A stretch of 64,000 nucleotides of DNA from the NCBI GenBank assembly GCA_001897745.1, contig MKUH01000029.1:42900-106899 (forward strand), given 5' to 3'. Under the pieces are notes generated by a model. It did not search any database. It was not told the DNA's origin and saw only the letters and a list, made by a program, of their open reading frames with translations. The translations under genes were made by a program, and so were the position numbers. This DNA is from Candidatus Accumulibacter sp. 66-26. Lineage in GTDB: Bacteria > Pseudomonadota > Gammaproteobacteria > Burkholderiales > Rhodocyclaceae. The first letter of the stretch is position 1, and every line of letters begins with the position of its first letter. This document shows, one piece after another, positions 13,117-38,037 of the stretch.

Positions 13117-13827
13117 TCACTCGTCGGCGACGACGATCAGGTGCACGCGGTACGGGCCGTGCGCGCCGAGGACGATGGTCTGCTCGATGTCGCCGGTGCG
13201 CGACGGGCCGGAGACGAAATTCACCGCGCGCGGCAGGGCGCCGTGCTCGGCGCGCAGCAGGGCGAAGCCCTCCTCCATGCCGGCGACGACGCGCGAGGCG
13301 GGCACCACGGCGATGTGCGTTTCCGGCAGCAGGCTGGTCGTGGCCGCGGTCTCGTTGCCGGAGAGCAGCATCAGCGAGCCGGTTTCGGCGATCGCGCAGA
13401 AGACGCCGGTGATGCCGACCAGATCGTCGGGCGCCGCGGCGCGCGGCTCGACGGCGAGGCCGGCGGCCGCCCAATCGAGTCCGCCGAGGCGCGGCCAGCA
13501 GACGGCGCGGGCCGCGAGGCCGGTAGCGGCGAGATAGCGGGCGACGGCGGCCGGCACCTCGGCGCTGCCGGCGACCGTGTCGACGGTCGAGGACATCGCC
13601 TCGGAGCGCGCGCGGAAGCGCTGCACGAGTTCGCCCTGCGGCAGCGCGGCGAGCGCCGGGCGCGGCCCGGACGGACGCGCGGCGATGTGGTCGAGCGCCG
13701 CCTGGCGGCGGGCGGCGGCCTGCGCCGGGTCGGCGGCGGGGTCCTGCTTGAGGGCGGCGCGCACGCGGCCGAGGATGTCTTCGCGGGAAGTGTCGCTGGA
13801 TGTGTCGCGGGAGGTGTTTTGGCTCAT
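13117..13827 (-). CDS. lutC: LutC/LldG-type lactate utilization protein
   Basis: 236-residue DUF162 protein, the third component of the LutABC (LldEFG) L-lactate oxidation complex. Family signatures near the C-terminus are NETAATTSLLPE, FVSGPSRTGDIE and VLGAHGP. The N-terminus is a Ser/Thr/Asp-rich tail. Oddly it is separated by about 29 kb from lutA and lutB and instead overlaps the end of modC by 4 nt (ATGA), so it is expressed at the tail of the molybdate-transport genes. Whether it still works with the distant LutAB is inference. Confidence 0.88.
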   Translation of the reverse strand: MSQNTSRDTSSDTSREDILGRVRAALKQDPAADPAQAAARRQAALDHIAARPSGPRPALAALPQGELVQRFRARSEAMSSTVDTVAGSAEVPAAVARYLAATGLAARAVCWPRLGGLDWAAAGLAVEPRAAAPDDLVGITGVFCAIAETGSLMLLSGNETAATTSLLPETHIAVVPASRVVAGMEEGFALLRAEHGALPRAVNFVSGPSRTGDIEQTIVLGAHGPYRVHLIVVADE

Positions 13828-14969
13828 GGATGCAATTCTTGCAGAGTTTCGGGCGGAAGGTCGGAAAACGAGCGGAAGGCGTCGATCACGGCGGGATCGG
13901 GCGGCAGCAGGCGGATCGCCGCGCGCTGCAGTTGCAGCGGCACGACGGCGCCCGGCGCGATGCCGCGGCGCGCCGCCACCGAGGCGCCGATGGCGAAGGA
14001 CAGCGCGGCGTCGCCGACGCGCGCCGTGACGCTGGCGTGGCCGCGCCAGGAGAGCGCTTCGGCGACGCGGGCGCAGAGCGTGTTCTCGCGCGTCTGCTGG
14101 TCCTCGCGCACGAGCACGACGCCGGCCGCCGGCACCACCCAGCACACCGTCGCGCCGGGCGCGAAGGCCGGCGTGTAGGGCGCGAGCAGCGTGCGGCCCA
14201 GCCATTCGAAGGCCGTCGCGCCGTCCTCCGGCAGGTGGCGCAGCACCTTGCCGGCGAACAGGTTGGGCTGGTCGGTCAGGCGCGCCACCAGCGCGCTCGC
14301 CGGCTGCGCCAGCATCTCGGCCGGCGCCGCCGTCTGCAGCGTGCGGCCGTGGTGCAGCACGGTCATGCGGTCGGCGAGCAGGCTCGCTTCTTCGAGGTCG
14401 TGCGTGACGAGGACGATCGGGATGTCCAGCGAGCGGCGCAGCTGCACGAGCTGGCGCAGGAGCTTGCGCCGCGTCACCTGATCGACCGCCGAGAAGGGTT
14501 CGTCGAGCAGCAGCACGCGCGGTTCGCGCGCCAGCGCGCGGGCGAGGGCCACGCGCTGCTGCTGGCCGCCGGACAGTTCGCCCGGCTGGCGCGCTTCGAG
14601 GCCGTCGAGATTGACCCGCGCCAGCCACTCGCGCGCCCGCGCGGCGCGCTCTGGCGGCGGCAGATGGCCGAGCGCGACCGTCACGTTGGCCAGCGCGCTC
14701 ATGTGCGGAAACAGCGCGTAGTGCTGGAAGACGAAGCCGACGCGGCGCTGCTGCGGCGGCACGTCGATGCCGGCGCCGGCGTCGTACCAGGTCTGCCCGG
14801 CGCAGCGCACGAAGCCGCCGGCCGGCCGGTGCAGGCCGGCGAGGCAGCGCAGCAGCGTCGATTTGCCGCTGCCCGACGGGCCGACCAGCGCGAGCAGTTC
14901 GCCGCGCGCGCATGCGATGTCGGCGGCGAGCGGGATCGGCGCCGCCTGTTCGAGGCGCGCTTCGAGCAT
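13824..14969 (-). CDS. modC: Molybdate ABC importer ATP-binding protein (copy 1)
   Basis: 381-residue ABC ATPase. Walker A is GPSGSGKST, the signature is [15 protein letters not shown] and Walker B is [13 protein letters not shown]. The C-terminal 140 residues resemble the molybdate/sulfate transporter regulatory region (TOBE-like) but I cannot delimit it. Together with ModB and ModA it imports molybdate. The start ATG shares one base with the modB stop and the end overlaps lutC. Sequence alone does not separate molybdate from tungstate; proximity to nap genes favours molybdate. Confidence 0.88.
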
Positions 14970-15631
14970 CAGCGCGGCCCTCCGCGCCGGCCGAGGCGGT
15001 ACACCAGCATCACGGCGACGAAGGACAGGCCGAGCAGCAATGCCGACATGCCGGCCGCCGCCGAATCGTTGAAGGCCTGCACCTGATCGTAAATGGCGAT
15101 GGCGATCGTCTTCGTCTCGCCCGGCAGATTGCCGCCGACCATCAGGACGACGCCGAATTCGCCGAGCGTGTGCGCGAAGGTCAGCGCCAGCGCGGCGGCG
15201 ATGCCCGGCCAGGCGAGCGGCAGCTCGATGCGCAGGAAGGTCTGCCAGCGCGACAGGCCGGACACCCAGGCCGCCTCGCGCACCTCGCGCGGAATCGCGG
15301 CGAAGGCGCGCTGCATCGGCTGCACGGCGAACGGCAGGTTGAAGACGAGCGAGGCGAGGAGCAGACCGTCGAAGCTGAAGACCAGCGCGCGCCCGGTCAG
15401 CGCGTGGTAGGCCTGGCCGAGCGGCGAGGCGCCGCCGAAACCGAGCAGCAGGTAGTAGCCGAGCACGGTCGGCGGCAGCACGAGCGGCAGCATGATCGCC
15501 GCCTCCAGCGCGCCCTGCCCGGCGAAGCGCGACCACGCGAGGCGGCGCGCCAGCCAGACGGAAAACGGCAGCAGGACGAACGCCGTGGCGGCGGCGAGCT
15601 TCAGCGAGAGGGTGAGCGCCTGCCAGTCCAT
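14969..15631 (-). CDS. modB: Molybdate ABC importer permease (copy 1)
   Basis: 220-residue ModB-type permease with five to six predicted helices. The ABC-permease EAA loop is EAAWVSGLSRWQTFLRIELP and the family motif [13 protein letters not shown] is present. It forms the homodimeric membrane channel of ModABC. It begins 8 bp after modA and is immediately followed by modC with a 1-nt overlap, so modABC is translated as a unit. Confidence 0.93.
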   Translation of the reverse strand: MDWQALTLSLKLAAATAFVLLPFSVWLARRLAWSRFAGQGALEAAIMLPLVLPPTVLGYYLLLGFGGASPLGQAYHALTGRALVFSFDGLLLASLVFNLPFAVQPMQRAFAAIPREVREAAWVSGLSRWQTFLRIELPLAWPGIAAALALTFAHTLGEFGVVLMVGGNLPGETKTIAIAIYDQVQAFNDSAAAGMSALLLGLSFVAVMLVYRLGRRGGPR

Positions 15632-15639
15632 CGTCGCGT

Positions 15640-16506
15640 TCAGCGCGCCGGCAGCGTGAAGCCGTGGCGCTCGAAGACGGCGCGCGCCGCCGGCTGCTGC
15701 AGGTAGTCGTAGAAGCGTTGCGCATCGGCGCCGGCCTTGCGCGTCAGCGCCATGCGCTGGCGCAGCGGCGGATGCCAGTCCGCCGGCAGCAGCGCCGATT
15801 CGCCGAGCTTGGCCACTTCCGGCGAACGCGCCAGCGACCAGGCGACGATGCCGCCCTGCGTCGAGCCGCTGGTCGCGAACTGCGCCGCCTGCGCGACGTT
15901 CTCGCCGAGCACCAGCCGGCCCCGCAGCGCCTCCCAGACGCCGACCCGCTGCAGGGCGGCGCGCGCCGCGCGGCCGTAGGGCGCATGTTCGGGATTGGCG
16001 ATGGCGAAGCGCTGCACGCGCCCGTCGGCGACGGCGGCGACGAGGTCCTTCAACTCGCCGTCGGCTTTCAGTTTAGAGCCGTGCGGCACGAGCAGCGCGA
16101 TGCGACCGATCGCGTAGAGCGCGCCTTCGTCGCGCAGGAAGCCCTGCGCGGCGAGTTTCAGGACGTAGTCCTCGTCGGCCGAGAGAAAGAGATCGAAGGG
16201 CGCGCCCTGCGGTATCTGCCGCGCGAAGTTGCCGGACGAGCCGAAAGCGAGCTGCACCGCCTGCCCGCTCTCCTTCTCGTAGTTCGCCGCGATCTCGCCG
16301 AGCGCGAACTTGAGGTCGGCGGCAGCGGCGACGACGACCGGCGCCGCATGCGCAGCGGGCACGACGACGGCCCCCAGCCCGCAGGCGAGCAGCAGGCAGA
16401 GGAAGACGCGACGAATCGAGCGAATCGGCGCGAGAAAGGTCGGCGAGCGGCGAGCGGGAAAGAGAGAAGCGGGGAGCATGGGCGGCAATCCGGAAGGCCG
16501 CAGCAT
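15640..16506 (-). CDS. modA: Molybdate ABC importer periplasmic binding protein (copy 1)
   Basis: 288-residue ModA homologue with a cleavable signal peptide ending near AAHAA. Family features are AAAADLKFAL, AFGSSGNFARQI, APFDLFLSAD and PEHAPYGRAA, which frame the oxyanion-binding cleft. It captures molybdate in the periplasm for ModBC. The start at 16506 has AGGAGGG about 7 nt upstream on its strand; an alternative ATG at 16479 lacks a comparable site. No ModE-type box is visible in the 73 bp between exbD and this gene, unlike the second modA. Confidence 0.92.
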   Translation of the reverse strand: MLRPSGLPPMLPASLFPARRSPTFLAPIRSIRRVFLCLLLACGLGAVVVPAAHAAPVVVAAAADLKFALGEIAANYEKESGQAVQLAFGSSGNFARQIPQGAPFDLFLSADEDYVLKLAAQGFLRDEGALYAIGRIALLVPHGSKLKADGELKDLVAAVADGRVQRFAIANPEHAPYGRAARAALQRVGVWEALRGRLVLGENVAQAAQFATSGSTQGGIVAWSLARSPEVAKLGESALLPADWHPPLRQRMALTRKAGADAQRFYDYLQQPAARAVFERHGFTLPAR

Positions 16507-16579: not shown

Positions 16580-16996
16580 TCAGCCGGGCTCGGTAACGAA
16601 GCCGATCCGCAGCAGGCCGCTGCGGGCGAGAACGGACAAGGTGCGCGCCATTTCCCCGTAGGGCACCGCCGCGTCGCCCTTGAGATGGATTTCGGTGTCC
16701 GGCGCCGCAGCGGCGAGCCGGGCGGCACGCCGCTCCAGTTCGGCCGGCGTCACCGCCTCGCCGTTCCAGTGGAGCCGCCCATCGCGTTGCACGGCGATCT
16801 CGACGTGCTCGGCGCGCGTCACGTTGGGACGGCTGCTCGCCTGCGGCAGTTCGAGCTTGACCGCGTGCGTCAGCAGCGGCGCGGTGACGATGAAGACGAC
16901 GAGCAGCACCAGCATGACGTCGACCAGCGGGATGACGTTGATTTCCGACAGCGGCCGCCCGCCGGCCCCCGAGCCCAGCGTTCCCAGCCCCATCAC
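16580..16996 (-). CDS. exbD: ExbD/TolR-type energy transducer
   Basis: 138-residue biopolymer transport protein with one N-terminal transmembrane helix containing the conserved Asp (PLVDVMLVLLVVFIVTAPL) and a periplasmic domain. With ExbB it harnesses the proton gradient for TonB. The start overlaps the exbB stop by 4 nt. The tonB gene lies about 5 kb upstream on the same strand, beyond napDABC, and two TonB-dependent receptors lie further upstream, so ExbD probably serves those receptors. Confidence 0.9.
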   Translation of the reverse strand: MMGLGTLGSGAGGRPLSEINVIPLVDVMLVLLVVFIVTAPLLTHAVKLELPQASSRPNVTRAEHVEIAVQRDGRLHWNGEAVTPAELERRAARLAAAAPDTEIHLKGDAAVPYGEMARTLSVLARSGLLRIGFVTEPG

Positions 16997-17718
16997 GCGG
17001 CTCCCGCGACGCGCAGCGCCGGGGCGCGCCCGCCGCGCAGCAGCGGCGCGCCGGTGACGGCCAGCGTCAGCAGATCGTGCCCGAAGGCGTCGAGGCGGCC
17101 GAGGACGATCCGGTTGCGCCGCGTCAGCGCGTTGTAGCCGAGCACCGCCGGAATCGCCACGGCGAGGCCGATGGCGGTCATGATCAGCGCCTCGCCGACC
17201 GGGCCGGCGACCTTGTCGAGCGTGCCCTGGCCGGACAGGCCGATGGCCAGCAGCGCGTGATAGATGCCCCAGACGGTGCCGAACAGGCCGACGAAGGGCG
17301 CCGTCGATCCGACCGAGGCGAGCAGCGTCAGTCCGCGTTCGAGACGCTCGCTCTCCTCCTCGATGCCCTGACGCAGGGCGCGCGTGAGGAACTCCGACAG
17401 GCCGCCGGCGGCGTCGAGATGGCTGGCGTCGTGCGCCGCGTAGTGCCGGGTCGAATCCAGCGCGATGCGGGCGAGGCGGGCGCAGGGTTCATCGGGCGCC
17501 TCGGGCAGGCCGTCGGCCACCTCGGCGAACGAGCGGGCGCGCCGGAAGCGCGTCAGGAAGGCGGCGCTGCGGCGCCTGAGCAGCCAGTGCCCGAGCAGGC
17601 GGTCGACGATGATTCCCCAGCTGACGAGCGAGGCGAGCAGCATGGCGACGAGGATGAAACGCGCGACATGGTCGGCCTGGGCGAGAAAATGGGTGAAGCC
17701 GAGAGCGGATTCGTTCAT
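16993..17718 (-). CDS. exbB: ExbB/TolQ/MotA-type proton channel subunit
   Basis: 241-residue protein with three predicted membrane segments. The conserved MotA/TolQ/ExbB region covers LLASVGSTAPFVGLFGTVWG and the following helices with EALIMTAIGLAVAIPAV. It forms the channel that energises TonB together with ExbD. It starts 82 bp after napC; the gap holds a GC-rich hairpin but no convincing terminator, so read-through from the nap genes is plausible. Confidence 0.9.
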   Translation of the reverse strand: MNESALGFTHFLAQADHVARFILVAMLLASLVSWGIIVDRLLGHWLLRRRSAAFLTRFRRARSFAEVADGLPEAPDEPCARLARIALDSTRHYAAHDASHLDAAGGLSEFLTRALRQGIEEESERLERGLTLLASVGSTAPFVGLFGTVWGIYHALLAIGLSGQGTLDKVAGPVGEALIMTAIGLAVAIPAVLGYNALTRRNRIVLGRLDAFGHDLLTLAVTGAPLLRGGRAPALRVAGAA

Positions 17719-17800
17719 GACGGAAACCTCGGTGCGACGAAACGGGAGAAGAAGGACGCGCGCAGCGGCGCGCGGCAAACGGATTCGGAAACGGGCGATC

Positions 17801-18478
17801 TCATCGCCCAGCCCCCGCCTCCGGCGCCCCGTCGCCGTGCGTGATTTCAAGGGCGCCTTCGTTGAACCTTCCGATGTGCTGGTCGACGGCCGGCAACTGG
17901 TGGGCGATGCCCTTGTGGCAGTCGATGCAGGTCTTGCCCTCGTCGAAAGCCTTCGGATGCTCGCGCGCCGGACGCATGCCCTGCATGCTGTAGTCCATGT
18001 AGTTGAAGTTGTGGCAGTTGCGGCACGGACGCGAATCGGTCGCCTTGAAGCGCCGCCATTCGTTCTCGGCCAGCCTCTGGCGCTTGGCGAGAAACTTCTC
18101 GCGCGTGTCGATGGTGCCGAGAATCTTGTGCAGCACCTCGTTCGAGGCCTGGATCTTGCGCCACATCTTCGGCCCCCACTCCTTCGGCACATGGCAGTCC
18201 GGGCACGTCGCCCGCACGCCGGTGCGGTTCGTGTAGTGGATGGTGTTCTGGTACTCGACGAACACGTTGTCCTTCATTTCGTGGCACGAGATGCAGAACT
18301 CCTCGCGGTTGGTCATTTCCAGCGCCCAGTTGAAGCCGCCCCAGAAGACGATGCCGGCGGCGAACAGGCCGACGGCGGCAAACGGACCGACGCGCTTCAG
18401 CCAGCCGGGGACGAGTTTCCCGACCCACGCGGGAACGAGCTTTCCGAGCCGGGCCAGGAGCGTTTTTTTCGTTTCCAT
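17801..18478 (-). CDS. napC: NapC/NirT tetrahaem cytochrome c quinol dehydrogenase
   Basis: 225-residue membrane-anchored cytochrome. A single N-terminal membrane helix is followed by four CXXCH haem sites: CISCH, CPDCH, CRNCH and CIDCH. It oxidises quinol at the inner membrane and passes electrons to NapB and NapA in the periplasm. It is the last nap gene, starting 9 bp after napB. The short Ala/Gly-rich tail after the last haem is ordinary for the family. Confidence 0.95.
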
Positions 18479-18487
18479 GAAATTTCC

Positions 18488-18934
18488 CTATCTCTTGGCG
18501 GCGGGCTTATAGACGTTCTCGACCAGCGGCGGCGCGTCGAACTGCGGCACGTGGCACTGCAGGCAGAAGTAGCGGCGCGGCGAGATGTTGGGGAGTTTCT
18601 TGTCCTCCCGCGTCAGGTAGTGCGACTTGCCGACCCGGGTCGCCCGGGTCGCTTCCGCGCGCTCGGCGGAGTGGCAGTCCATGCATTTGTTGAAGTTCTG
18701 CGTCACCTCGTAGCCGCGAATGCTGTGCGGAACCAGCGGCGGCTGCCTGGCGTAGTTGCGCGGGATGCTCTCCTTGTCCGCCTCGGGGCGGAACATGTTC
18801 ACCTTCGATTCCTCCTCGATGGAGGCATTGCCCCGTTCGGAACGCAGCGTTTCCTGCGCGGCTGCGCTCCCGGCACAGCACAGGAGCAGCCCGGTCAGCA
18901 AGGCTGCGGCGTGAATCAGTTTCATAGTTCCCAT
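18488..18934 (-). CDS. napB: Periplasmic nitrate reductase dihaem subunit
   Basis: 148-residue secreted dihaem cytochrome c with a signal peptide ending near GSAAAQ and two CXXCH sites, CMDCH and CLQCH. It delivers electrons from NapC to NapA. A second start three codons downstream (18925) is possible. The gene sits 65 bp after napA and 9 bp before napC in the order napD-napA-napB-napC; napE, napF, napG and napH are absent from the cluster. Confidence 0.95.
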   Translation of the reverse strand: MGTMKLIHAAALLTGLLLCCAGSAAAQETLRSERGNASIEEESKVNMFRPEADKESIPRNYARQPPLVPHSIRGYEVTQNFNKCMDCHSAERAEATRATRVGKSHYLTREDKKLPNISPRRYFCLQCHVPQFDAPPLVENVYKPAAKR

Positions 18935-18999
18935 CTCTGTTCATCGGCCGGGCGCAAAGCGCCGGCCACTGTTTTTCTGGAAGACGATCCCTTCGGCGC

Positions 19000-21513
19000 T
19001 CAGGCCCGGAACACCTTGACCGCACACTTCTTGTAGTCCGTCTCCTTCGAAATCGGACAGGTGGCATCGAGCGTCAGCTTGTTGACCAGGCGCCCGGCGT
19101 CGAAGAAGGGAATGAACACGAGGCCGCGCGGCGGCTTGTTGCGGCCGCGCGTCTCGACGCGCAACGTGATCTCGCCGCGCCGCGAGGCCACCCGGACCTC
19201 CATCCCGCGCTGCAGGCCGCGCGCCCTGGCGTCGTCCGGGTGCATGAAGACGACGGCATCGGGAAAGGCCTTGTACAGTTCCGGGACGCGCCGCGTCATC
19301 GAGCCGGTGTGCCAGTGTTCGAGCACGCGGCCGGTGCACAGCCAGAGGTCGTACTCCTTGTCCGGCGCCTCGGGCGGCGGCTGGTAGGGCAGCGCGAAGA
19401 TCACCGCCTTGCCGTCCTGGTGGCCGTAGAAGCGGACCTTCTCTCCCTTCTTCACGTAGGGGTCGTAGCCCTCGCGGAAACGCCATAGCGTCTCCTTGCC
19501 GTCCACCACCGGCCAGCGCAGGCCGCGCGCCTGGTGGTAGGTCTCGAAGGGCGCGAGGTCGTGCCCGTGGCCGCGGCCGAAGGAGGCGTACTCCTCGAAC
19601 AGGCCCTTCTGCACATAGAAGCCGAAGTGCTTGGCATCGTCGTTGTCGAAGCCCTTCTGGATCTGCTTGAGCGGAAATCTGTCCACCTGCCCGTTGCGGT
19701 AGAGCACGTCGAACATGCTCTTGCCCTTGAGCTTCGGCGCCTTGGCCAGGAGTTCCGGCGGCCACACCTCGTCGATCCGGAAGCGCTTGGCGAACTCCAT
19801 GATCTGCCACAGGTCCGAGCGCGCCTCGCCGGGCGGCTTCACCTGCTGGCGCCAGATCTGCGTGCGGCGCTCGGCGTTGCCGTAGCCGCCCTCCTTTTCG
19901 ACCCACATCGCCGTCGGCAGGACGAGGTCGGCGGCCATCGCGGAAACCGTCGGATAGGGATCGGAGACGACGATGAAGTTGTCCGGGTTGCGCCAGCCGG
20001 GATAGAGCTCGTCGTTGATGTTCGGCCCGGCCTGCATGTTGTTGTTGCACATCTGCCAGTAGAAATTGACCTTGCCGTCCTTCAGCGCGCGCGCCATGGC
20101 CACGGCGTGCAGGCCGACCCAGTCGGGAATCGTGCCGTCCGGCAGCAGCCAAAGTTCCTCGGCGTGGCGCCGGTGCTCCGGGTTGGTGACGACCATGTCG
20201 GCCGGCAGGCGGTGGGCGAAGGTGCCGACCTCGCGCGCCGTGCCGCAGGCCGACGGCTGGCCGGTCAGCGAGAAGGGGCTGTTGCCCGGCTCGGAAATCT
20301 TGCCGGTCAGCAGGTGGATGTTGTAGATCAGGTTGTTGGCCCAGGTGCCGCGCGTGTGCTGGTTGAAGCCCATGGTCCAGAAGGAGACGACCTTGATCTT
20401 CGGATCGGCGTAGAGCTCGGCGAGCGCCTTGAGATGTTCGACGGAAACGCCGGAGAGCTTCGACACTTTCTCGACCGTGTAGTCGGCGACGAACTTTCTG
20501 AACTCGTCGAAGGTGATCGCGTCCGACTTGCCGGTGTTGCCGCGCGGTTTGCCGTCGGCGCCCGGATAGCCGTTGTTGTTGGCGTCCTTCTCGAGCGGAT
20601 GGTTCGGGCGCAGACCGTAGCCGATGTCGGTGACGCTGTTCTTGAAATTGACGTGCCTGGAAACGAACTCCTGATTCACCCGCCCCGTCGCGATGATGTG
20701 GTTGGCGATGTAGTTCATGATCGCCAGGTCGGTCTGCGGGGTGAAGATCATCGGGATGTCGGCCAGCTCGTACGAGCGGTGCTCGTAGGTCGAGAGCACG
20801 GCCAGCCTGACGTGCTTGTTCGACAGCTTGCGGTCGGAGATGCGCGTCCACAGGATCGGGTGCATCTCGGCCATGTTCGACCCCCAGAGCACGAAGGCGT
20901 CGGCGTGCTCGATGTCGTCGTAGCAGCCCATCGGCTCGTCGATGCCGAAGGTGCGCATGAAGCCGGTGACGGCCGAGGCCATGCAGTGGCGCGCGTTCGG
21001 ATCGAGGTTGTTGGAGCGGAAGCCGACCTTCATCAACTTGACGGCGGCGTAGCCCTCCATGATCGTCCACTGGCCGGAACCGAACATCGAAATGCCCTTC
21101 GGTCCCTTCTTCTTCAGGGCATCCCGGCACTTCTCCTCCATGACGTCGAAGGCCTGCTTCCATGACACCGGCGCGAACTCGCCGTCCTTGGCGAACTTGC
21201 CGTCCTTCATGCGCAGCATCGGCGTCGTAAGGCGATCCTTGCCGTACATGATCTTCGACAGGAAATAGCCCTTGATGCAGTTGAGCCCCATATTGACCGG
21301 CGCGTCCGGGTCGCCCTGGGTCGCCACCACCCGGCCGTTCTGCGTGCCGACCAGCACCCCGCAGCCGGTTCCGCAGAAGCGGCAGGGCGCCTTGTCCCAG
21401 CGGATGTCGTCCTTCGGCGGCGCGGCCTCGGCAGTGCCGCCGGGCAAACCGGCGGCGGAAAGGGCCGCTGCCGCGGCATGGGCCTTGATAAACGCTCTAC
21501 GGTCCAGCTTCAC
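19000..21513 (-). CDS. napA: Periplasmic nitrate reductase catalytic subunit
   Basis: 837-residue molybdenum enzyme reducing nitrate to nitrite in the periplasm. The N-terminus carries a Tat signal (DRRAFIK then an Ala-rich core). The 4Fe-4S cluster motif is CRFCGTGC plus a Cys about 27 residues later (LNCIKGY), and the Mo ligand Cys is in ARHCMASAV. The C-terminal molybdopterin-guanine-dinucleotide binding region is intact and the length is normal for NapA. Its start overlaps napD by 4 nt. Need for molybdenum links it to the modABC and ModE-box genes nearby. Confidence 0.97.
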
Positions 21514-23414: not shown

Positions 23415-23419
23415 CGTGC

Positions 23420-29620: not shown

Positions 29621-29637
29621 CAATAACTCCTGAAGGT

Positions 29638-30729: not shown

Positions 30730-30801
30730 GGTGATCGCCTCCAAGGTATTCATGCATATATAACGGTGGTTGAAAAAAGGCCGGCGCCCGGCGCATTCCG
30801 C

Positions 30802-31599
30802 TCAGGCGTGCGCCTTCTCCCAGGAAATGAACGCCCAGCGCATCGGCGCACCGCTCGGCGCGTGCCCGGGCGGCATGCTGTCGTACCAGGCGCGCAGACG
30901 CGAACGTTCGTCCGCGCTCAGCTCGCCCAGCGTCCACGCGACGCGTCCGGCGAATTCGTCGAAATCGGCGCTCCCGGCCAGCCGGCCTTCGTGCTCGATG
31001 TAGTCGAGCCGCGCGTGGATGCCCATGCCGTGCAGGATGTTCAGCACGTAGATGTAGTCCGGCAGCGGCGGCTGCCGGCGTCCGACGGCCTCGATCACCG
31101 CCGGGTCGATGAAGCGGCCGCCGACGAGGTGGGTCAGGTAGACGCGCTTGCGGGCCTTGGCGTGCAGCTTGGCCAGCGCCGCCGCCATGTCGTCCACTGT
31201 CGTCGAGCGCGAGGCGACGACGATGTCGCATTCGGGCACCGCGCTCCAGTCGTCCTCCCACGCCAGCTGGATCGCCTCGACGTTGTCCAGGCCGCGCGCG
31301 GCGGCGTTTTCCAGCAGCGCGTCGAGCATGCCGCGGCTGTAGTCGAGGCCGACCACGCGCGCCAGCCGGTCGGCCAGCGGCAGACCGATGGTGCCCGGGC
31401 CGCAGCCGACGTCGAGCAGCGTCTCGGCCCCGGTAAGGTCCATGCGCGCGATGAATTCGTCGACGTAACGGCTGCGCTGCACTTTCCGGCTCATGTCCGC
31501 GGCGCGCGCGTCCCAGGCGCTGGCCGGCTTCGGCGCGCGCGCGGCGGCGGCCAGGTGATCGCTGTAGAGGCGGCCGAAATCGATGGCGGCGATGGTCAT
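30802..31599 (-). CDS. Class I SAM-dependent methyltransferase
   Basis: 265-residue cytosolic methyltransferase with a clear motif I (LLDVGCGPGTIGLPLA), followed by GLDYSRGMLDAL and an acidic post-motif region. The N-terminal 60 residues may form a lid. The acceptor is unknown. Its ATG overlaps the stop of the ATPase gene of importer 2 by 4 nt, and the radical SAM gene follows after a gap of about 70 bp, so it belongs to the same expression unit. With the second methyltransferase at 23420 it suggests tailoring of a small molecule. Confidence 0.85.
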   Translation of the reverse strand: MTIAAIDFGRLYSDHLAAAARAPKPASAWDARAADMSRKVQRSRYVDEFIARMDLTGAETLLDVGCGPGTIGLPLADRLARVVGLDYSRGMLDALLENAAARGLDNVEAIQLAWEDDWSAVPECDIVVASRSTTVDDMAAALAKLHAKARKRVYLTHLVGGRFIDPAVIEAVGRRQPPLPDYIYVLNILHGMGIHARLDYIEHEGRLAGSADFDEFAGRVAWTLGELSADERSRLRAWYDSMPPGHAPSGAPMRWAFISWEKAHA

Positions 31600-32399
31600 G
31601 ACGGGCAACTTTCCTGTGGATTCGGAATGGTGGAGGGATGCGCGGCGAGATGCGGCGCGAGGCAGGCGGCGACGGCGTCCGCGCCAACGCCGTAGAGCGC
31701 GGCCAGACGCGCGGGCGTGGCGACGGCGGCGGGCGCGCCGATGCCGGCGAGCCCGCCCGGCGCGAGCAGGGCGATGCGGTCGGCGACGCGCAGCGCGTGC
31801 TCGGGCTGGTGCGTGGACATCAACACGGCGATGCCCTGCCCGCGAAGCTCGGCGATGTGTTCGAGGACGCGGATCTGGTTGCCGAAATCGAGGCTGGCGG
31901 TCGGCTCGTCCATGACCAGCAGGACGGGTTCCTGCGCCAGGGCGCGGGCGATCAGCGCGAGCTGGCGCTCGCCGCCGCTGATCTCGGTGTAGACGCGGCG
32001 CTTCAGGTGCCCGATGCCGAGCGCGTCGAGACAGGCGCCGGCGACTTCGCGGTCGTGCCGCGACGGCGCGCCGAAGCGCGCGACGCGCGCGGCGCGTCCC
32101 ATCAGCACAATGTCCTCGACGGTATAGGGGAAGATGCCGGCGTGCGCCTGCGGCACGTAGCCGACGCGCTGCGCGAAGGCGGCGCGCGACCAGCCGGCGA
32201 CCGGCTCGCCGAGCACGCGCACCTCGCCGGCGAGCGGCGGCAGCAGGCCGAGCAGGGTCTTGAACAGGGTCGTCTTGCCGCCGCCGTTGGGACCGAGCAG
32301 GCAAAGCACCTCGCCCGCGCCGACGGCGAGGTCGATGCCCTCCCCGACCCGGCGCCGGCCGTGCCCGATCGCCAGCGCATGTGTCTCGACGATCGTCAT
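31596..32399 (-). CDS. FecE/BtuD-type ABC ATPase, importer 2
   Basis: 267-residue ATPase with Walker A GPNGGGKTT, signature ISGGERQLALIARAL and Walker B LLVMDEPTASLD. It is closely similar to the ATPase of importer 1. It overlaps the preceding permease and the following methyltransferase by 4 nt each. It is longer at the C-terminus (Ala/Pro-rich tail) than importer 1. Substrate is probably a metal chelate; relatives in this branch include siderophore, B12, haem and (MolC in Haemophilus) molybdate importers. Confidence 0.92.
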   Translation of the reverse strand: MTIVETHALAIGHGRRRVGEGIDLAVGAGEVLCLLGPNGGGKTTLFKTLLGLLPPLAGEVRVLGEPVAGWSRAAFAQRVGYVPQAHAGIFPYTVEDIVLMGRAARVARFGAPSRHDREVAGACLDALGIGHLKRRVYTEISGGERQLALIARALAQEPVLLVMDEPTASLDFGNQIRVLEHIAELRGQGIAVLMSTHQPEHALRVADRIALLAPGGLAGIGAPAAVATPARLAALYGVGADAVAACLAPHLAAHPSTIPNPQESCPS

Positions 32400-33460
32400 T
32401 CGGCCCGCCCGCTGCGCGCCAGCAGATAGAGGAAGAACGGCGCCCCGATCAGAGCGGTGACGATGCCGAGCGGCAGTTCGATGCCGGCCATCGTGCGTGC
32501 CAGCGTGTCGGCGCCGACGACGAAGCCGGCGCCGAGCAGCAGCGCCGCCGGCAGCAGGCGGGAAAAATCCGGCCCGACCAGGAAGCGCGCCGCATGCGGA
32601 ACGACCAGCCCGACCCAGCCGATGACGCCGGCGATCGAAACGACGGCGGCGGTCGCCAGCGTCGCCGCCGCGATCAGGACGAGGCGCAGGCGGACGACGT
32701 CGACGCCGAGCGCCGCCGCCTCCTCGTCGGACAGGCTCAGGAGGTTCACCCGCCAGCGCAGCAGCAGCATCGGCGCCAGGCCCAGCCCGACGAGCGGGGC
32801 CGCCGACGCGAGATCGAGCGCATTGATGCCGTTCAGGCTGCCGAGCAGCCAGAAGACGATGGCCGTCAGCTGCGTATAGGGATCGGCCATGATCTTGAAG
32901 AGCGAGATGCCGGCGCCGAGCAGCGTGCTGACGGCGACGCCGGCCAGCACGAGGACGAGCACCGGGTCGTGCCGGCGCACCAGCCCGGAGATCGCGTAGA
33001 CCGCGCCGACGGCGGCCAGCCCGCAGAGGAAGGCGGCGCCCTGCACGGCGGCCAGCGGCCAGCCGAGGTAGATGCCCACCGTCGCGCCGAAGCCGGCGCC
33101 GCTGGAAACGCCGAGGATGTCCGGCGACACCAGCGGGTTGCGGAACATGCCCTGATAGGCGGCGCCGGCGGCGGCGAGCGCCGCGCCGACCAGCATGCCG
33201 GCCGCGATACGCGGCAGGCGGATATTCCAGATCACCGTTTCCACCGCCGGCGGCAGCCCGGCGTCGCCGCCGCCCAGGCGCGCGGCGACGGAGCGCAGCA
33301 GATCGCCGGGAGCGACGGGAAACTTGCCGAAGGCGAAGGCGGCGACGAGCACGGCGCCGAGCAGCGCCAGCGCCAGGGCGTAGGCGGGCAGCCGGAGCAG
33401 CGCCGCCCGGCGCGCTGCGGGCACGGCGACATCCGCATTCACCCTGCTCGCTCCGCTCAT
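32396..33460 (-). CDS. FecCD-type ABC permease, importer 2
   Basis: 354-residue permease with hallmark phrases RLPRIAAGMLVGAALAAAGA, FRNPLVSPDILGVSSGAGFG and GVIGWVGLVVPHAARFLVGP. About ten helices are predicted. The ATG at 33460 overlaps the binding protein stop by 4 nt, which decides the start over an ATG further upstream inside that gene. It is a clear paralogue of the importer 1 permease, but is divergent enough to suggest different ligands or an old duplication. Confidence 0.92.
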   Translation of the reverse strand: MSGASRVNADVAVPAARRAALLRLPAYALALALLGAVLVAAFAFGKFPVAPGDLLRSVAARLGGGDAGLPPAVETVIWNIRLPRIAAGMLVGAALAAAGAAYQGMFRNPLVSPDILGVSSGAGFGATVGIYLGWPLAAVQGAAFLCGLAAVGAVYAISGLVRRHDPVLVLVLAGVAVSTLLGAGISLFKIMADPYTQLTAIVFWLLGSLNGINALDLASAAPLVGLGLAPMLLLRWRVNLLSLSDEEAAALGVDVVRLRLVLIAAATLATAAVVSIAGVIGWVGLVVPHAARFLVGPDFSRLLPAALLLGAGFVVGADTLARTMAGIELPLGIVTALIGAPFFLYLLARSGRAE

Positions 33461-34509
33461 TTCGTCCGGCCCGCCCGCTTGCCGCTCTCCGCCCATCCCG
33501 GAAAATCCGTGCCGTAGAACAGGCGATAGAACTCCGCACCGGCCCGTTCGAGCTCGGCGCGGCCGACGCCGTGCAGATGGGCAAGCAGCCAGCGCACGCC
33601 GATCAGGCGGTTGACGCTGGGCGGCACGTCGAGCCAGCCGAAGGGCACGGCCGGCGCGCACAGGACGCGCCCGGCGCGGACGGCGGGGACGGCGCGCCAG
33701 AGCGGATCGCTCATCACGCGCTCGGCGAAGCCGGCGTCCTGCGTCAGGATCACCTCCGGCGCCCAGCCGAGGACCTGCTCCAGCGACACGCGAACCACTC
33801 CGCCGCGCCCCGCCTCGGCGGCCACGTTGCGCCCGCCGGCGACCTCGACGGTCTCCATGTTGATCGATCCGTCGAGGCCGGTTTCCAGCCCCTCGGGACC
33901 GCGCGCGTAATAGACGCCCGGGCGTCGCCCGGCGGCCGCAGCGCTGCGCTGGCGGGCGGCCAGCGCCAGCGTCCGCTCGGCGTACGTGGCGAGCGTCTCG
34001 GCGCGTGCCGGGACGCCGAGCAGCCCGCCGACCTCGCGCAGCTGGCGCGGACTGTCGAGCAGGCGGCCGTCGACCAGCGCGTAGGGAATGCCGGTCTGCT
34101 CGGCGACGCGCTGCGCGGTCGAGGCATAGGTGGCGTCTATCGTGCCGACGTCGAGGATGAGGTCGGGCTTGAGCGTGAGCAGCGTTTCGACGGAAACCGT
34201 GCTACCGCGTCCGGCCAGACGCCCGAGCAGGGGCAGGTCGCGAAGCGGCGCGGGAAGCGCGCCGAGGGCCTCAGCGGAAAGACGCCAGGGCCAGCCGAGC
34301 AGCGCCTGCGGCGCCAGAACGGCGGTCAGCACGCTGGCCGGCGCGCCGGCGGCGAACACGCGGCGGATGCTGGCAGGCGGCGGCAGGCGTCCGAACGCGG
34401 TGACAAGGCCGGGTTGGCCAGGATCGCCCGCCTTCGCCCAGGCGCCGCGCGCCGCGGGAAGCAGCCAGGGCGCGCAGGCCAGCGCGCGCAGCAGGGTGCG
34501 GCGCTTCAC
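33457..34509 (-). CDS. Periplasmic binding protein of FecCD-type ABC importer 2
   Basis: 350-residue binding protein of the BtuF/FepB/MolA type. The N-terminus has a possible Tat-like signal (KRRTLLRALACAPWLLPA). The first lobe includes RVFAAGAPASVLTAVLAP and LLTLKPDLILDVGTIDATY; the second contains SLEQVLGWAPEVILTQ and VRAGRVLCAPAVPFGW. The GTG at 34509 overlaps the stop of the DUF2478 gene as GTGA; a GTG at 34515 is an alternative. The conserved wording around PFGWLDVPPSVNRLIG is seen in iron- and molybdate-type relatives; which metal is bound here is not decided by the sequence. Confidence 0.87.
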   Translation of the reverse strand: MKRRTLLRALACAPWLLPAARGAWAKAGDPGQPGLVTAFGRLPPPASIRRVFAAGAPASVLTAVLAPQALLGWPWRLSAEALGALPAPLRDLPLLGRLAGRGSTVSVETLLTLKPDLILDVGTIDATYASTAQRVAEQTGIPYALVDGRLLDSPRQLREVGGLLGVPARAETLATYAERTLALAARQRSAAAAGRRPGVYYARGPEGLETGLDGSINMETVEVAGGRNVAAEAGRGGVVRVSLEQVLGWAPEVILTQDAGFAERVMSDPLWRAVPAVRAGRVLCAPAVPFGWLDVPPSVNRLIGVRWLLAHLHGVGRAELERAGAEFYRLFYGTDFPGWAESGKRAGRTK

Positions 34510-35051
34510 GCGCACTCCGCCGTCCGCCGGACGCCGGCGAACCAGTTGCGGAGCGCATCCAGGGCCGGCGCCAGTTCGACCCCGGCGCGGCCGGTGAACG
34601 AACGCCAGTCGAGGAGGTAGTCGTCGGCGACGACGGTGAGCAGCGGCACGCCTTCCGCCATGAGGGCCAGCATTTCGTCGGCGAAGCCGCCGCCGTTCGC
34701 CTCCAGCGCGCCGAAGCGGTTGACGACGACGAGATCGACGAGCGCTGCGCCCTCGAAGAGCGCACGGCGCAGCGCCGCGCTGGCGTCGGCGATCCCCCCG
34801 GCGTCGATCGCGCACGCCGCCGACGCCGGGCCGAGATCCTGGAACAGCGGATAGCTGACGCCGTCCGCCAGATCGACAAGCACGGTCCCGGCCTTGCCGG
34901 CGCCTCGCACCTGCTGCACCAGGCCGCGCACCCGCCGCCCCTCCTGGCGCAGTTCGAAGGCGAAATCGGCGAGCAGGGCGTCGACGATGCCGCGCTCGGC
35001 GTGGACGATGGCGGCGATGGGGAAAGCGGGGGAGGAGGAAGATGTCTTCAT
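34506..35051 (-). CDS. DUF2478 family protein
   Basis: 181-residue cytosolic protein that I place in DUF2478, a family commonly encoded beside molybdate transport genes; function is unproven. It has an NTPase-THEP1-like shape, with IAAIVHAERGIVDALLADF where a P-loop might be but without a GKT/GKS, then LVDLVVVNRFGALEANGGGF and LTVVADDYLLDWRSFTG. It precedes the importer 2 binding protein with a 4-nt overlap and follows the cytochrome fusion gene by 29 bp. Association with Mo genes supports a molybdenum link for this block. Confidence 0.72.
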   Translation of the reverse strand: MKTSSSSPAFPIAAIVHAERGIVDALLADFAFELRQEGRRVRGLVQQVRGAGKAGTVLVDLADGVSYPLFQDLGPASAACAIDAGGIADASAALRRALFEGAALVDLVVVNRFGALEANGGGFADEMLALMAEGVPLLTVVADDYLLDWRSFTGRAGVELAPALDALRNWFAGVRRTAECA

Positions 35052-35080
35052 GTGCGATGGCTCCAGCGGTATCGACCGGA

Positions 35081-35884
35081 TCAGTCGATGATTTTTCTGA
35101 CTTCGACGGTCTTCAACCACTTCAGGTAGCGGGAGCCGAAGTGGTTGTCCCCGGCGGAGACCATGGCGATGCGCCCTTCGCTGTCGGCCAGCGGCTGTCC
35201 GTCCTTTTCCAGGATCAGGAGCACGCCGTCGCCCATCGAGGATGCGAGCAGTTCCAGCCACGAGAAAACCACGCGGTAGCCGTCGCTGGCGGTGGCGACG
35301 ACGATCGTTTTCTTGCCGTCGTGATGGGATTGCACGTCGAGTTCGGCCTGCTTGAGCACGTCGCGCAGAAGCACGCCTTTCAGCATCTGCCGCCCGCCGT
35401 CGCGCAAGGCCACCGGAATTTCCCGCTGCTCGAGCTTGCGCAGCGCGTTCACGTCGAGGTCGAGCGGCTGCTTCACGGCGCCGGAGACGGCGACGCGCTC
35501 GCTGACGAAATGCGAGAAGTCGGTGAACTCCCCGCGTACGTCGAGAATCCATTTCGCCAGCCTGCGGGCATCCTCGGGCGGCACGCGGGCGTTCGGCGGC
35601 ATGAATGGCAGCTTCGCCTTGCCCTCCCGCATCCAGCCGAGACCGTCGGGTCCCGTCCCGGCGACGATGCGCCGGGCAAGGAGTGCCTCCGCCGCCTCGG
35701 CGCTCCCGCCTCCGGCATAGCGTCCGGCCACGTCCTTGAACGCGGGGCCGTTCTGCGCCTCGGCACCGCGATGACAGGAAAGGCAGCCGCTTTTCTGCGC
35801 CAGAACGAATTCGTCCGCGGCAACGCCCGGCCCGGCGGAAAGCATGGCGAAGGCCGCCATGGCGTACATGATCGCTTGCATCAT
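35081..35884 (-). CDS. Secreted monohaem cytochrome c fused to molybdopterin-oxidoreductase-like fold
   Basis: 267-residue exported protein. A signal peptide (to about residue 22) is followed by a cytochrome c domain with CLSCH and a Met in FMPPNA as likely sixth ligand (residues 25-105). The C-terminal half resembles the sulfite-oxidase/YedY-type molybdopterin-binding fold (VAVSGAVKQPLDLDVNAL, GVLLRDVLKQAEL, IAMVSAGDNHFGSRYLKW). No Cys occurs after the haem motif, so the Mo-coordinating Cys of that family is missing and catalytic Mo binding is unlikely. It sits 50 bp after TonB receptor 2. It may bind a pterin, metal chelate or partner protein; function unknown. Confidence 0.75.
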   Translation of the reverse strand: MMQAIMYAMAAFAMLSAGPGVAADEFVLAQKSGCLSCHRGAEAQNGPAFKDVAGRYAGGGSAEAAEALLARRIVAGTGPDGLGWMREGKAKLPFMPPNARVPPEDARRLAKWILDVRGEFTDFSHFVSERVAVSGAVKQPLDLDVNALRKLEQREIPVALRDGGRQMLKGVLLRDVLKQAELDVQSHHDGKKTIVVATASDGYRVVFSWLELLASSMGDGVLLILEKDGQPLADSEGRIAMVSAGDNHFGSRYLKWLKTVEVRKIID

Positions 35885-35934
35885 TTCATCCGTTTCATCC
35901 AGAGGCCCTCCGGCAAGGCCGAAGGGCGGGGCAA

Positions 35935-38037
35935 TCAGAATTGAAGGCGGGTGGACAGGAGGAAGTTGCGGCCTTCCTGCGGATAGCCATCGACGAGCTG
36001 ATAGTTCTTGTCGAGCAGGTTGCGGCCGGTCAGGGCGATGTCCCAGTCGCGCCGGAGCTTGTATTCGACCTTCAGAGCGAGCAGTTGGTAGGCGCCCGTC
36101 CGGACGTAACCGTTGCCCACGGCCTTCGTGGACCAGCGCGCCCCGGCTGCCTCCAGGCTCGGAATCACGGTCAGGGCGTCGTTCGGCGTCCATTTGGCGT
36201 AGAGGAAGCCCTTGTTCTGCGGCGCGGTGGTCAGACGCAGCGAGGGATCGTTCGGCGCGTCGATCCGGGTATCGATCCAGGTGTAGTTGCCGCCGACTTC
36301 GAGATGGCGCGAAACCTGCGCCGCGAGGCCGAACTCGACGCCCTTGAAGACGGCCTCGCCGACGTTCCGGTTCTGGCTTTGGTTGGTCCCGTTGTAGACG
36401 ATGGGAACGTACTGGATCGCGTCCCTGACCTTGTTGTGGAAGATTGCCGCCTCGCCGCGCACGCCGGGCCAGAGCGTCTCGGCAATGCCGATTTCGAGGT
36501 TGAGGGCGCGCTCGGGCTTGAGCCAGGGGTTGGAAATGGCGCCGCCAAAACGGCTGCTGAAGCGGTCGGCCATGGTCGGGAAGCGCGTGCGATCGGAGGC
36601 CGATGCATGCAGCTTGCCGCTGCCGCTGTAGCGCCAGATCGCCGCCGCCTGGTAGTTGGTGGCAAAGCTGTCCGCCATCGGCTGATTGAACAGGACGTTG
36701 CTCGCGTATTCCTGCGCCTGCTTCGAGCGCCGGATGTCGCGGCTGATGCCGCCGATCAGGTCGAGATTGCGCGTCACATGCCAGGTATCCTCCAGCGCCG
36801 CGGACATCGTGTCCTCGATCGTCGTCTGTCGCGGCTCGGTGAAGTTCGTGGCGTGGGTCAGCTGCCACTCCGAATGATCGTCGCGGCGGTAATGCAGCGC
36901 CGCCTTCAGGGTCTGTCGCGCGAAATGCGTGGTTCCCAGCTCCAGGCTCAGGCCTTTGGCGTTGTCGTCGTAGGTGCTGGTCCAGTTCTTGGTCGTCAGC
37001 GAAACGTTGGTGTAGGCGACCAGATCGTTCCTGAATTCGTTGTAGTAAGCCTTGGCCTTCAGCCAGCTCTTGTCGCCGAGCGCGGTATGCGAAAGAAAAT
37101 AGAGGCCGGAGGTATCCCACGTCGGCCAATCCCAGGCGCTGATCGTCGACGTCCCCGTCACCGCACCGATGCCGTGCTTTTCCCCGCTCTGGGTGACGTA
37201 GTTCAGGGAGTATTCGTCGGTCGCATTCGGCGTGAAACCGGCCTTGAGACTGAAACGCCGGTCGTTCTTGCTGGTGTGATCGCGCTTGCCGCCGTCTTCG
37301 GCGACCGTCGGCTTGAAGTCCCGCGACAGACGCCAGCTATCGACATCGCGCTGCTGCGCGCTGATCTGGTAGTAGAAACGCTCCGAGCGGCCGCCCAGAT
37401 TGGCGTACACGGTATTGCCGTTGTACTCGCCGCCGCCGGCCAGTGCGGCGGTGGCGCGCACTTCGCCTTCGAACGGCTTGACCGGCTTGCGCGTCACCAG
37501 ATTGATCGCGCCGCCCATGCCGTCCGGCCCGTTGAGCACCGAGACATAGCCTTTCGAGACCTGGACTTCGGACAGGTCGGGCGTCAGAAAACGGTCGAGA
37601 TCGATGCGGTTGTCGGCGGGGAGATAAAGGCGGATACCGTCCATCAGCAAGGGAACCTGGAAGCGGTCGAAGCCGCGAATGCTGATTCCCGTTTCGTTAC
37701 GGTTGCCTGCGCCGGTCGTCGTGGCGACGCCGGGAATCAGGTTGAGCGCCTCCGCCACGCCGTCCTTGCTGAAATCCCACAGTTGCTCCCGATCCAGCGT
37801 CGCGGTGCCAAGCGCGCTTTCGTTGTCGCGATTGCCGGTCACGGTGATCTGCCCCAAGGTGAAAACCTGGCCCGCGGAAGTCAGCACGCCATCGGCGGCG
37901 TACGCCCCTCCCGACAGTGCGAGCGAAACGGCGCCGGCAATCGCGCAGCGCTTGGCTGCTCGATGCAAGCAAAAAGGCGAACGGCGGGTTCGCCGAATTC
38001 GCGACGCCGTTCCATTGACGATGCTCCCCCTGGTCAT
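35935..38037 (-). CDS. TonB-dependent outer-membrane receptor 2
   Basis: 700-residue receptor with signal peptide (ending about GGAYAAD), a complete plug (ITVTGNRDNESALGTATLD, IPGVATTTGAGNRNETGISI, GPDGMGGAINLVTRKP) and a beta-barrel ending LQF. The ATG at 38037 has AGGGGG about 7 nt upstream; upstream in-frame codons run through the regulatory region and are unlikely to be translated. It heads the long minus-strand block. A ModE-type box lies about 140 bp upstream (38178-38201), implying control by molybdate and suggesting that the ligand is a molybdenum or related oxyanion chelate (inference). Confidence 0.92.
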   Translation of the reverse strand: MTRGSIVNGTASRIRRTRRSPFCLHRAAKRCAIAGAVSLALSGGAYAADGVLTSAGQVFTLGQITVTGNRDNESALGTATLDREQLWDFSKDGVAEALNLIPGVATTTGAGNRNETGISIRGFDRFQVPLLMDGIRLYLPADNRIDLDRFLTPDLSEVQVSKGYVSVLNGPDGMGGAINLVTRKPVKPFEGEVRATAALAGGGEYNGNTVYANLGGRSERFYYQISAQQRDVDSWRLSRDFKPTVAEDGGKRDHTSKNDRRFSLKAGFTPNATDEYSLNYVTQSGEKHGIGAVTGTSTISAWDWPTWDTSGLYFLSHTALGDKSWLKAKAYYNEFRNDLVAYTNVSLTTKNWTSTYDDNAKGLSLELGTTHFARQTLKAALHYRRDDHSEWQLTHATNFTEPRQTTIEDTMSAALEDTWHVTRNLDLIGGISRDIRRSKQAQEYASNVLFNQPMADSFATNYQAAAIWRYSGSGKLHASASDRTRFPTMADRFSSRFGGAISNPWLKPERALNLEIGIAETLWPGVRGEAAIFHNKVRDAIQYVPIVYNGTNQSQNRNVGEAVFKGVEFGLAAQVSRHLEVGGNYTWIDTRIDAPNDPSLRLTTAPQNKGFLYAKWTPNDALTVIPSLEAAGARWSTKAVGNGYVRTGAYQLLALKVEYKLRRDWDIALTGRNLLDKNYQLVDGYPQEGRNFLLSTRLQF

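Follow-up and report, generated by a model that had tools for sequence, protein, structure and literature searches.

A radical SAM gene block linked to molybdenum in Candidatus Accumulibacter sp. 66-26, and a possible metal-ligand system

Introduction

What is the role of a run of 25 genes that joins the uptake parts of a metal-complex system, a radical SAM enzyme (rSAM; SAM, S-adenosylmethionine) and molybdenum genes on a single strand? The run lies in a 64-kb stretch of Candidatus Accumulibacter sp. 66-26 (contig MKUH01000029.1; G000:C29:42900-106899, 67% G+C), here called the window, and it was pointed out in an initial annotation of that DNA. How anaerobes gather molybdenum (Mo) and tungsten (W), when these metals are scarce or bound by sulfide, is poorly understood. 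On balance we lean towards reading the block as a regulon for acquiring molybdenum (or tungsten), whose enzymes would make a small metal ligand, to be imported again as its metal complex. The gene content and order, the recurrence of a core in other phyla, the box-like sites, the riboswitch matches and the enrichment of molybdenum genes are read from the DNA itself, and they support a molybdenum-linked system beyond what the window alone could show.

Organisation of the gene block

The 25 minus-strand genes form one unbroken run (13117-38223). When the closest plausible starts are taken no intergenic gap exceeds 97 bp, the largest being that between TonB and NapD, and many adjacent genes overlap by 1-10 nt, so the tight one-strand arrangement first described is confirmed. 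Pfam recognised 24 of the 25 genes, and the last one, ModC, was recognised by NCBIfam. In gene order, with the first gene at the top and the last, which stops at 13117, at the bottom, they are:

35938-38223, minus: TBDR2, TonB-dependent receptor (PF00593/PF07715; likely start 38037 or 38220)
35081-35884, minus: CytMo, c-type cytochrome (CLSCH) with a cysteine-free, sulfite-oxidase-like domain at the C-terminus (PF00034, PF00174)
34506-35051, minus: DUF2478 protein (PF10649)
33457-34509, minus: SBP_A, class III periplasmic binding protein (PF01497)
32396-33460, minus: FecCD_A permease (PF01032)
31596-32399, minus: ABC_A ATPase (PF00005)
30802-31599, minus: MT_A, SAM-dependent methyltransferase (PF13649)
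29638-30753, minus: CX5CX2C radical SAM enzyme, HcgA/HmdB-like (PF04055; TIGR03957 best)
27407-29620, minus: TBDR1, TonB-dependent receptor (PF00593)
26332-27396, minus: FecCD_B permease (PF01032)
25577-26341, minus: ABC_B ATPase (PF00005)
24490-25560, minus: SBP_B, class III periplasmic binding protein (PF01497)
23420-24457, minus: OMT_B, O-methyltransferase-like (PF08100 at 24.7 bits, narrowly under the cut-off of 25.6; BchU 40 bits, cut-off 276)
22539-23414, minus: DUF364/DUF4213 protein (above the Pfam cut-off and with the fold of the family)
21865-22545, minus: TonB (PF03544, TIGR01352)
17801-21767, minus: NapDABC, Mo enzyme genes (Pfam; NapA equivalog 1573 bits)
16993-17778, minus: ExbB (PF01618)
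16580-16996, minus: ExbD (PF02472)
13824-16506, minus: ModABC set 1 (ModA over the TIGR01256 cut-off; ModB PF00528; ModC at 235.9 bits under the curated TIGR02142 threshold of 285.05)
13117-13827, minus: LUD protein, LutC (PF02589)

The block thus encodes a complete TonB-uptake set, that is receptor, TonB-ExbBD, binding protein, permease and ATPase. Both FecCD permeases have HI1471 (MolB, 2nq2) as their best solved match, FecCD_A at 1.3e-57 and FecCD_B at 1.2e-65, and it outranks the heme, ferrichrome (Fhu) and vitamin B12 (Btu) permeases in both cases. According to the text of the report on this system, HI1470/71 and MolA make up the molybdate importer MolBC-A (PMC4031551). The nearest solved structure is BtuB for TBDR2 (2.4e-14) and YncD/PqqU for TBDR1 (1.9e-14).

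The radical SAM enzyme

The CX5CX2C motif that had been noted reads CELDPLCDYC and was found in 26 of 26 rows examined; its three cysteines are invariant in a 39-row alignment, drawn from a search that gave 78 homologues among 7997 candidates scored. The name HmdB-like, which the enzyme had been given, is right in that HmdB (TIGR03957) is the nearest curated family, at 116 bits and ahead of BioB (43.5) and PylB (30.9), but not as an assignment, the score being far below the curated cut-off of 320.9. For ten further relatives, some of them about 30% identical to the window protein, HmdB was again the best family each time (111-153 bits). The structure model (pLDDT 90.4) has HydE at the top among solved folds, and HydG, BioB and PylB are also alike. 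HcgA, which has a CX5CX2C motif, is described in the text of its report as the source of the pyridinol from which the FeGP cofactor is made (PMC10100467). The HmdB-nearest match, the HydE/BioB-like model and the chemistry of HcgA together suggest by analogy that the enzyme is likely to build a small cofactor-like molecule.

The C-terminus of one relative, P0029, continues into the apparent end of a TonB receptor.

Conservation of the module

The gene is rare among relatives. We found no orthologue in 40 of them (best other match 37 bits), and at E <= 1e-25 the family occurs in one of the 369 genomes of the class sample, the own genome. A pattern-based scan of a species-genome collection gave 32 loci, numbered here with an L; 17 of them are represented in the genome-level analysis, with few of the short-contig or distant ones included. 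The core clade of the enzyme tree has 23 rows (Bacillota 12, Pseudomonadota 6, Thermodesulfobacteriota 2, Acidobacteriota 1, no label 2), and the distant rows belong to Omnitrophota, Elusimicrobiota and Thermodesulfobacteriota. The window enzyme clusters with those of two Burkholderiales metagenome-assembled genomes (MAGs), a Desulfocapsaceae MAG and one copy from a Rhodocyclaceae MAG. Importer genes lie alongside the rSAM gene in Bacillota, Pseudomonadota and Thermodesulfobacteriota, and also at L049, one of the distant loci, from Omnitrophota; at the 6-kb locus of Acidobacteriota the enzyme gene stands without other module genes.

Of the 20 close loci, 17 have a binding protein, 16 an ABC ATPase, 15 FecCD and 11 DUF364, counted at a 45-bit limit that admits some unspecific ABC ATPases (e.g. 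in L046) and with several contigs stopping near the rSAM gene. TonB receptors occur in seven, all Gram-negative, and an O-methyltransferase in three. The core recurring in three phyla consists of the rSAM enzyme, SBP, FecCD, ABC ATPase and DUF364, with TonB receptors added in Gram-negatives. DUF364 is found in 16 of the 17 rSAM genomes analysed; among the 368 genomes of the class that lack the enzyme it is found in 26. The Fisher value (3e-16) is a guide only since the two genome sets differ in taxonomy.

The closest parallel is the Rhodocyclaceae MAG JACFMQ010000002 (L061, L042, L062), which keeps the block order almost wholly, from TBDR2 to ModABC. Its first stretch runs TBDR2, CytMo, DUF2478, SBP_A, FecCD_A, ABC_A, MT_A, rSAM, TBDR1; in the middle there are additional rSAM/SBP/TBDR/FecCD units followed by FecCD_B, ABC_B, SBP_B, rSAM and further receptors; and the last stretch runs OMT_B, DUF364, TonB, ExbB, ExbD, NifQ, a TOBE protein, ModE, ModABC. 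The proteins are 89% (FecCD_B), 86% (DUF364), 84% (ExbD), 81% (ExbB), 72% (MT_A), 67% (DUF2478) and 56% (TBDR2) identical to those of the window, and ModABC only 36-44%.

That the parts of the block belong together, as was first proposed, is supported for the importers and DUF364 and not supported for nitrate reductase and LutC. The outcome that would have refuted the proposal, a lack of any joint conservation, did not occur. NapA, B, C and D and LutC were each found in none of the 20 close loci over the sequence available for them, and in the syntenic MAG TonB is followed by ExbB with no NapDABC in between. Judged from this gene order, NapDABC is probably a later addition in the own genome, while NifQ, ModE and Mod are part of the neighbourhood, and LutC probably stands outside the module.

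Some of the related clusters hold other genes of note. NifH- and NifD/K-like genes lie at L048:5626-8798, L056:507-4232 and L031:19564-20391, where Pfam identified those of L048 and the NifD/K pair of L056, and similarity the NifH of L031 and L056. A conserved repeat protein, Sel1-like by eye, is shared by four Desulfosporosinus clusters (L036:15279-15929, and L038, L054 and L056) with 65-73% identity. Another Desulfosporosinus cluster, L068:4900-12485, has two MoeA genes and NapA-like stretches (27-41% identity), and also a frame that by eye resembles aldehyde ferredoxin oxidoreductase, a tungsten enzyme.

Flanking molybdenum genes and ModE-like boxes

Just beyond the block as it was first delimited there are further molybdenum genes (38311-42154), so that such genes border its uncharacterised middle part on both sides:

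38059-38086: predicted ModE-like box, 16/20 consensus bases
38259-38286: predicted ModE-like box between the divergent TBDR2 and NifQ, 15/20 consensus bases
38311-38892, plus: NifQ (PF04891, 116.2 bits), divergent from the block
39056-41705, plus: ModABC set 2, ModC with TOBE (ModA and ModB over NCBIfam cut-offs; ABC_tran and TOBE)
41729-42154, minus: ModE-like regulator with a single DNA-binding domain (TIGR00637 at 81.9 bits, cut-off 98.5), facing NifQ and ModABC set 2

The boxes were scanned for with the Escherichia coli ModE consensus at a limit of 15/20 that was set after a box in the window had been noticed by eye. The whole window has two matches, both in the TBDR2-NifQ intergenic region, and 20 simulated sequences had none (expected 0.00 for the window, at most 0.15 for any other locus). 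A ModE-like gene, with its domain below the curated cut-off, and boxes predicted at the operon heads are hence found together here. Upstream of the rSAM gene a predicted box is present in five of the seven Gram-negative close loci scanned, L029 (19/20), L030 (15/20), L031 (16/20), L032 (15/20) and L033 (15/20), and these boxes end between 4 bp and about 170 bp ahead of the likely rSAM start. The remaining two are L040 of Geobacter, with riboswitches in place of a box, and L042, whose rSAM gene is internal to a long cluster that has a box upstream of its first gene (L061). ModE-like genes lie nearby in L031, L062, L064 and L065. At the same limit no box was seen in nine short loci that served as controls from relatives (L010, L011, L013, L014, L016, L020, L021, L023 and L026), nor in L040, L042, L062, L063, L065, L066 and L070. 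As to nitrogenase component 1, the own genome has no Oxidored_nitro match over the cut-off, and one below it at 21.5 bits.

Molybdenum and tungsten riboswitches

The riboswitch scan covered 32 stretches (564 kb), made up of the 22 less distant of the 32 loci and 10 neighbouring regions. The Moco/Tuco RNA (RF01055) had 17 matches in 11 of the stretches, with one Moco-II in addition, and most of them stand immediately before module genes: before the rSAM gene in L046 and a weak rSAM-like gene in L068; before the O-methyltransferase gene in L038, L054 and L056 (marginal in L056, 38.1 bits); before FecCD in L036, L037, L044 and L067; before the binding protein in L034 and L068; before a methyltransferase in L067; and before DUF364 in L040. 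One copy in L067 lies ahead of a gene without an assigned role. In Geobacter (L040:4860-4975, 5105-5151, 5267-5385) two Mo/W riboswitches and the Moco-II stand in tandem before DUF364. Cobalamin or other metal riboswitches at the gathering score were absent from all 32 stretches.

Copies of this RNA are numerous in some lineages, at least 15 in S. wolfei and 8 in D. hafniense by the published count (PMC2408646), and this is one reason for control regions from the same genomes. Fourteen such regions of 20 kb, from eight of the genomes, had no match, giving 16 in 220 kb at module loci against 0 in 280 kb, with a P of 2e-6 that is too good because the eight genomes were picked once their module loci had already shown riboswitches. 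When one match per genome is removed, 8 against 0 remain and P is about 0.001 (by hand, same base counts). The third stem is absent from two aligned Geobacter elements and kept in four aligned Bacillota elements; in the text of the riboswitch paper the form without it is linked to tungsten (PMC2408646).

Molybdenum genes near the radical SAM gene

Enrichment was counted in 18 genomes, the own one included, around 28 of the 32 rSAM matches, four weak ones (E 1e-20 to 1e-15) being left out. Within 30 kb of the enzyme gene lie 28 of 45 DUF364 genes (expected 0.68), 9 of 63 MoeA (0.90), 7 of 36 ModA-class (0.52) and 7 of 57 TOBE genes (0.79). The last three amount to a 9- to 14-fold enrichment, where the Poisson values overstate independence since the set includes close relatives, three genomes of Acetobacterium and four of Desulfosporosinus. 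The ModA-class set was intended to hold matches of at least 140 bits, and one of 140.2 bits on an rSAM-free contig is omitted; 57 of 58 TOBE rows were used, one with two in-frame stops being excluded, and several rows are two halves of one gene. With the own genome excluded the counts are 9/61 for MoeA, 5/33 for ModA and 6/54 for TOBE. Within 10 kb only DUF364 (20/45) and MoeA (5/63, expected 0.36) are clear. FeoB, taken as a control, was found near the enzyme gene in 0 of 26 cases, which is a weak control as only about 0.4 were expected.

All 18 genomes have at least one Mo/W link at the rSAM locus, three of them (Acetobacterium) by MoeA alone. The MoeA beside the module is divergent (73-89 bits) in Acetobacterium and one Desulfosporosinus, and scores ordinarily (123-141 bits) in Geobacter and Desulfosporosinus SbF1. 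In Acetobacterium the divergent genes adjoin DUF364 (L041:4925-6145, L043:4861-6144, L069:3926-5047, L069:10742-11887) and score about half of the best MoeA in the same genomes; it is possible that they are metal insertases for another ligand. The molybdenum link of the initial annotation is thus supported, regulatory sites and neighbouring genes both pointing to Mo/W.

Other features of the window

LutC (13117-13827) lies about 29 kb from LutB and LutA (42824-45015, recognised by eye) on the same strand. The molybdenum genes lie between them, as does a short frame (about 42114-42820) that by eye resembles aldehyde dehydrogenase, and it may be that a lut operon was split by insertion of the molybdenum island. 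At 53-5935 there is an open frame of 1960 aa, possibly a large surface protein.

Discussion

The proposed acquisition regulon would work as follows. Under molybdenum shortage the ModE-like regulator (41729-42154) would come off the boxes at 38059 and 38259 and so allow expression of the divergent operons, a role that the Mo/W riboswitches would fill in Bacillota and Geobacter. The rSAM enzyme may build a heterocyclic scaffold, by analogy with HcgA and the pyridinol of the FeGP cofactor, which DUF364 and the two methyltransferases would complete. We infer the ligand itself, its secretion and its import: it would leave the cell, by a route with no candidate gene, and bind Mo or W, and TBDR1 and TBDR2, powered by the TonB-ExbBD of the block, would import the complex. 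SBP_A and SBP_B with the two MolB-like FecCD importers would then move the complex or the freed oxyanion through the inner membrane, and ModABC, NifQ and DUF2478 would deal with free molybdate destined for Mo enzymes, for instance the adjacent NapA.

The block shares parts with several known systems. Like MolBC-A (HI1470-1472), the type II molybdate/tungstate importer of Haemophilus influenzae, it has a FecCD-type permease and a class III binding protein; its permeases best match HI1471, and its binding proteins match HI_1472, though not as their top match. Unlike MolBC-A, the importers are duplicated and joined to TonB receptors, TonB-ExbBD, the rSAM enzyme, DUF364 and methyltransferases. With FeGP biosynthesis (HcgA/HmdB, HcgB-G) it shares an rSAM enzyme with CX5CX2C, of the BioB/HydE/PylB group, whose nearest curated family is found there, but the score is well under the HmdB cut-off and the context is Mo rather than Fe; no Pfam or NCBIfam match to the other Hcg proteins was reported among the block genes searched. 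Azotobacter makes the catechol molybdophores azotochelin and protochelin. The proposed use, a secreted Mo-collecting ligand, is the same, whereas no nonribosomal peptide synthetase (NRPS) family was seen by Pfam among the block genes, and the chemistry would begin with the rSAM enzyme. Compared with TonB-dependent metallophore systems the uptake parts are all present, but known ligand synthetase and exporter families are not among the 25 genes. The DUF364 protein has the Pfam family and fold of the "heavy-metal chelation" proteins Dhaf4260 (3l5o) and PH1506 (3npg). The paper on that family already connects it with genes for the transport of Mo, W, V and Fe and proposes chelator synthesis, and its main text does not contain the word "radical" (PMC2954201). 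The Moco/Tuco RNA and ModE regulons are represented by their predicted sites at the heads of the module operons; the riboswitch paper discusses molybdate/tungstate transport and genes of unknown function, and the words "radical", "biotin" and "DUF364" are absent from its main text (PMC2408646).

Several observations weigh against a secreted and re-imported molybdenum ligand. The Pfam search found no NRPS, siderophore-synthetase (NIS) or exporter family among the 25 block genes, which is why secretion has no candidate gene. MolBC-A, as the text of its report describes it, imports molybdate in free form and with low affinity (PMC4031551), and the FecCD parts may accordingly work without any ligand. 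The top solved matches of both binding proteins are unnamed structures: 4pag and 4ovk precede 3psa (HI_1472, MolA; 1e-10) for SBP_A, and for SBP_B the order is 4ovk (9.4e-27), 4pag, the iron-complex-binding 4hn9 (1.7e-11) and then 3psa (9.8e-8). The distance of the rSAM enzyme from the HmdB cut-off counts on the same side, and so do the low counts of O-methyltransferases and TonB receptors in the close loci, which mean that tailoring and passage through the outer membrane differ between loci. Only 2 of 36 ModA-class genes (1 of 33 when the own genome is left out, P 0.18) and 0 of 57 TOBE genes lie within 10 kb of the rSAM gene. There is no Mo riboswitch in the window, and none was found at the Acetobacterium loci, where MoeA is the sole Mo link and which the box scan did not cover.

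The MoeA- and NifHDK-like genes of the related clusters fit an intracellular cofactor equally well. The block could then make a cofactor in which an organic ligand holds Mo or W, much as HcgA-G make one for Fe, and its receptors and importers would salvage this cofactor from outside like vitamin B12. We regard this as unlikely, even if the HcgA-like enzyme, the MoeA genes adjoining the module in Acetobacterium, Desulfosporosinus and Geobacter, the NifHDK-like sets of some clusters and the lack of an exporter among the 25 genes are all in keeping with it. An obvious client enzyme is not seen in the block, the duplications of SBP, FecCD and TBDR, with three rSAM genes in one cluster, resemble receptor diversification, and ModE-like boxes and Mo riboswitches at operon heads would better suit an uptake induced by scarcity. 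It is somewhat less likely still that the block imports Mo/W complexes made by other organisms, with the SAM enzymes and DUF364 processing or breaking the ligand so that the metal is freed. Two receptors and two importers without an exporter, and the many paralogous binding proteins within one cluster, would agree with such a role, in which the periplasmic cytochrome could reduce a complex, but DUF364 and the rSAM enzyme also occur in Gram-positive clusters that have no outer-membrane receptors, and the nearest characterised rSAM enzyme, as its report describes it, builds a ring and does not degrade one (PMC10100467).

An ordinary iron-siderophore or vitamin B12 uptake island, placed beside mod and nap by accident, seems improbable to us. 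In its favour, most annotations of the FecCD, SBP and TBDR families name Fe or B12, BtuB is the closest solved structure to TBDR2, and an iron-complex protein stands above HI_1472 for SBP_B. Against this stand the enrichment of MoeA, ModA and TOBE, the ModE-like boxes, the Mo riboswitches in place of cobalamin or other metal riboswitches, the permeases that best match HI1471 and, weakly as few were expected, the lack of FeoB near the enzyme gene. A chance assembly of unrelated same-strand operons has hardly any probability left and is refuted for the core, which recurs in three phyla with its neighbours enriched near the rSAM gene and in almost complete order in the Rhodocyclaceae MAG; it would account for NapDABC and LutC, which are not conserved members.

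Returning to the acquisition regulon, we found no description in the literature of a combined radical SAM, DUF364 and Mol-type module, and to our knowledge the known molybdophores are catechols. We tentatively propose, with rather less assurance than for the regulon itself, that the HcgA-type rSAM enzyme marks an undescribed family of Mo/W metallophores in at least three phyla, perhaps of a hydroxypyridine type, each with its own receptors and MolB-like importers, and turned on when Mo or W runs short, by way of ModE in Gram-negatives and of the Moco/Tuco riboswitch in Bacillota and Geobacter. If this is true, a ligand made by a radical SAM enzyme under Mo-responsive control would be a new class of natural product. 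It would also explain the long-unassigned DUF364 family, and the cultured Acetobacterium, Desulfosporosinus and Syntrophomonas would offer genes in which the proposal can be tested.

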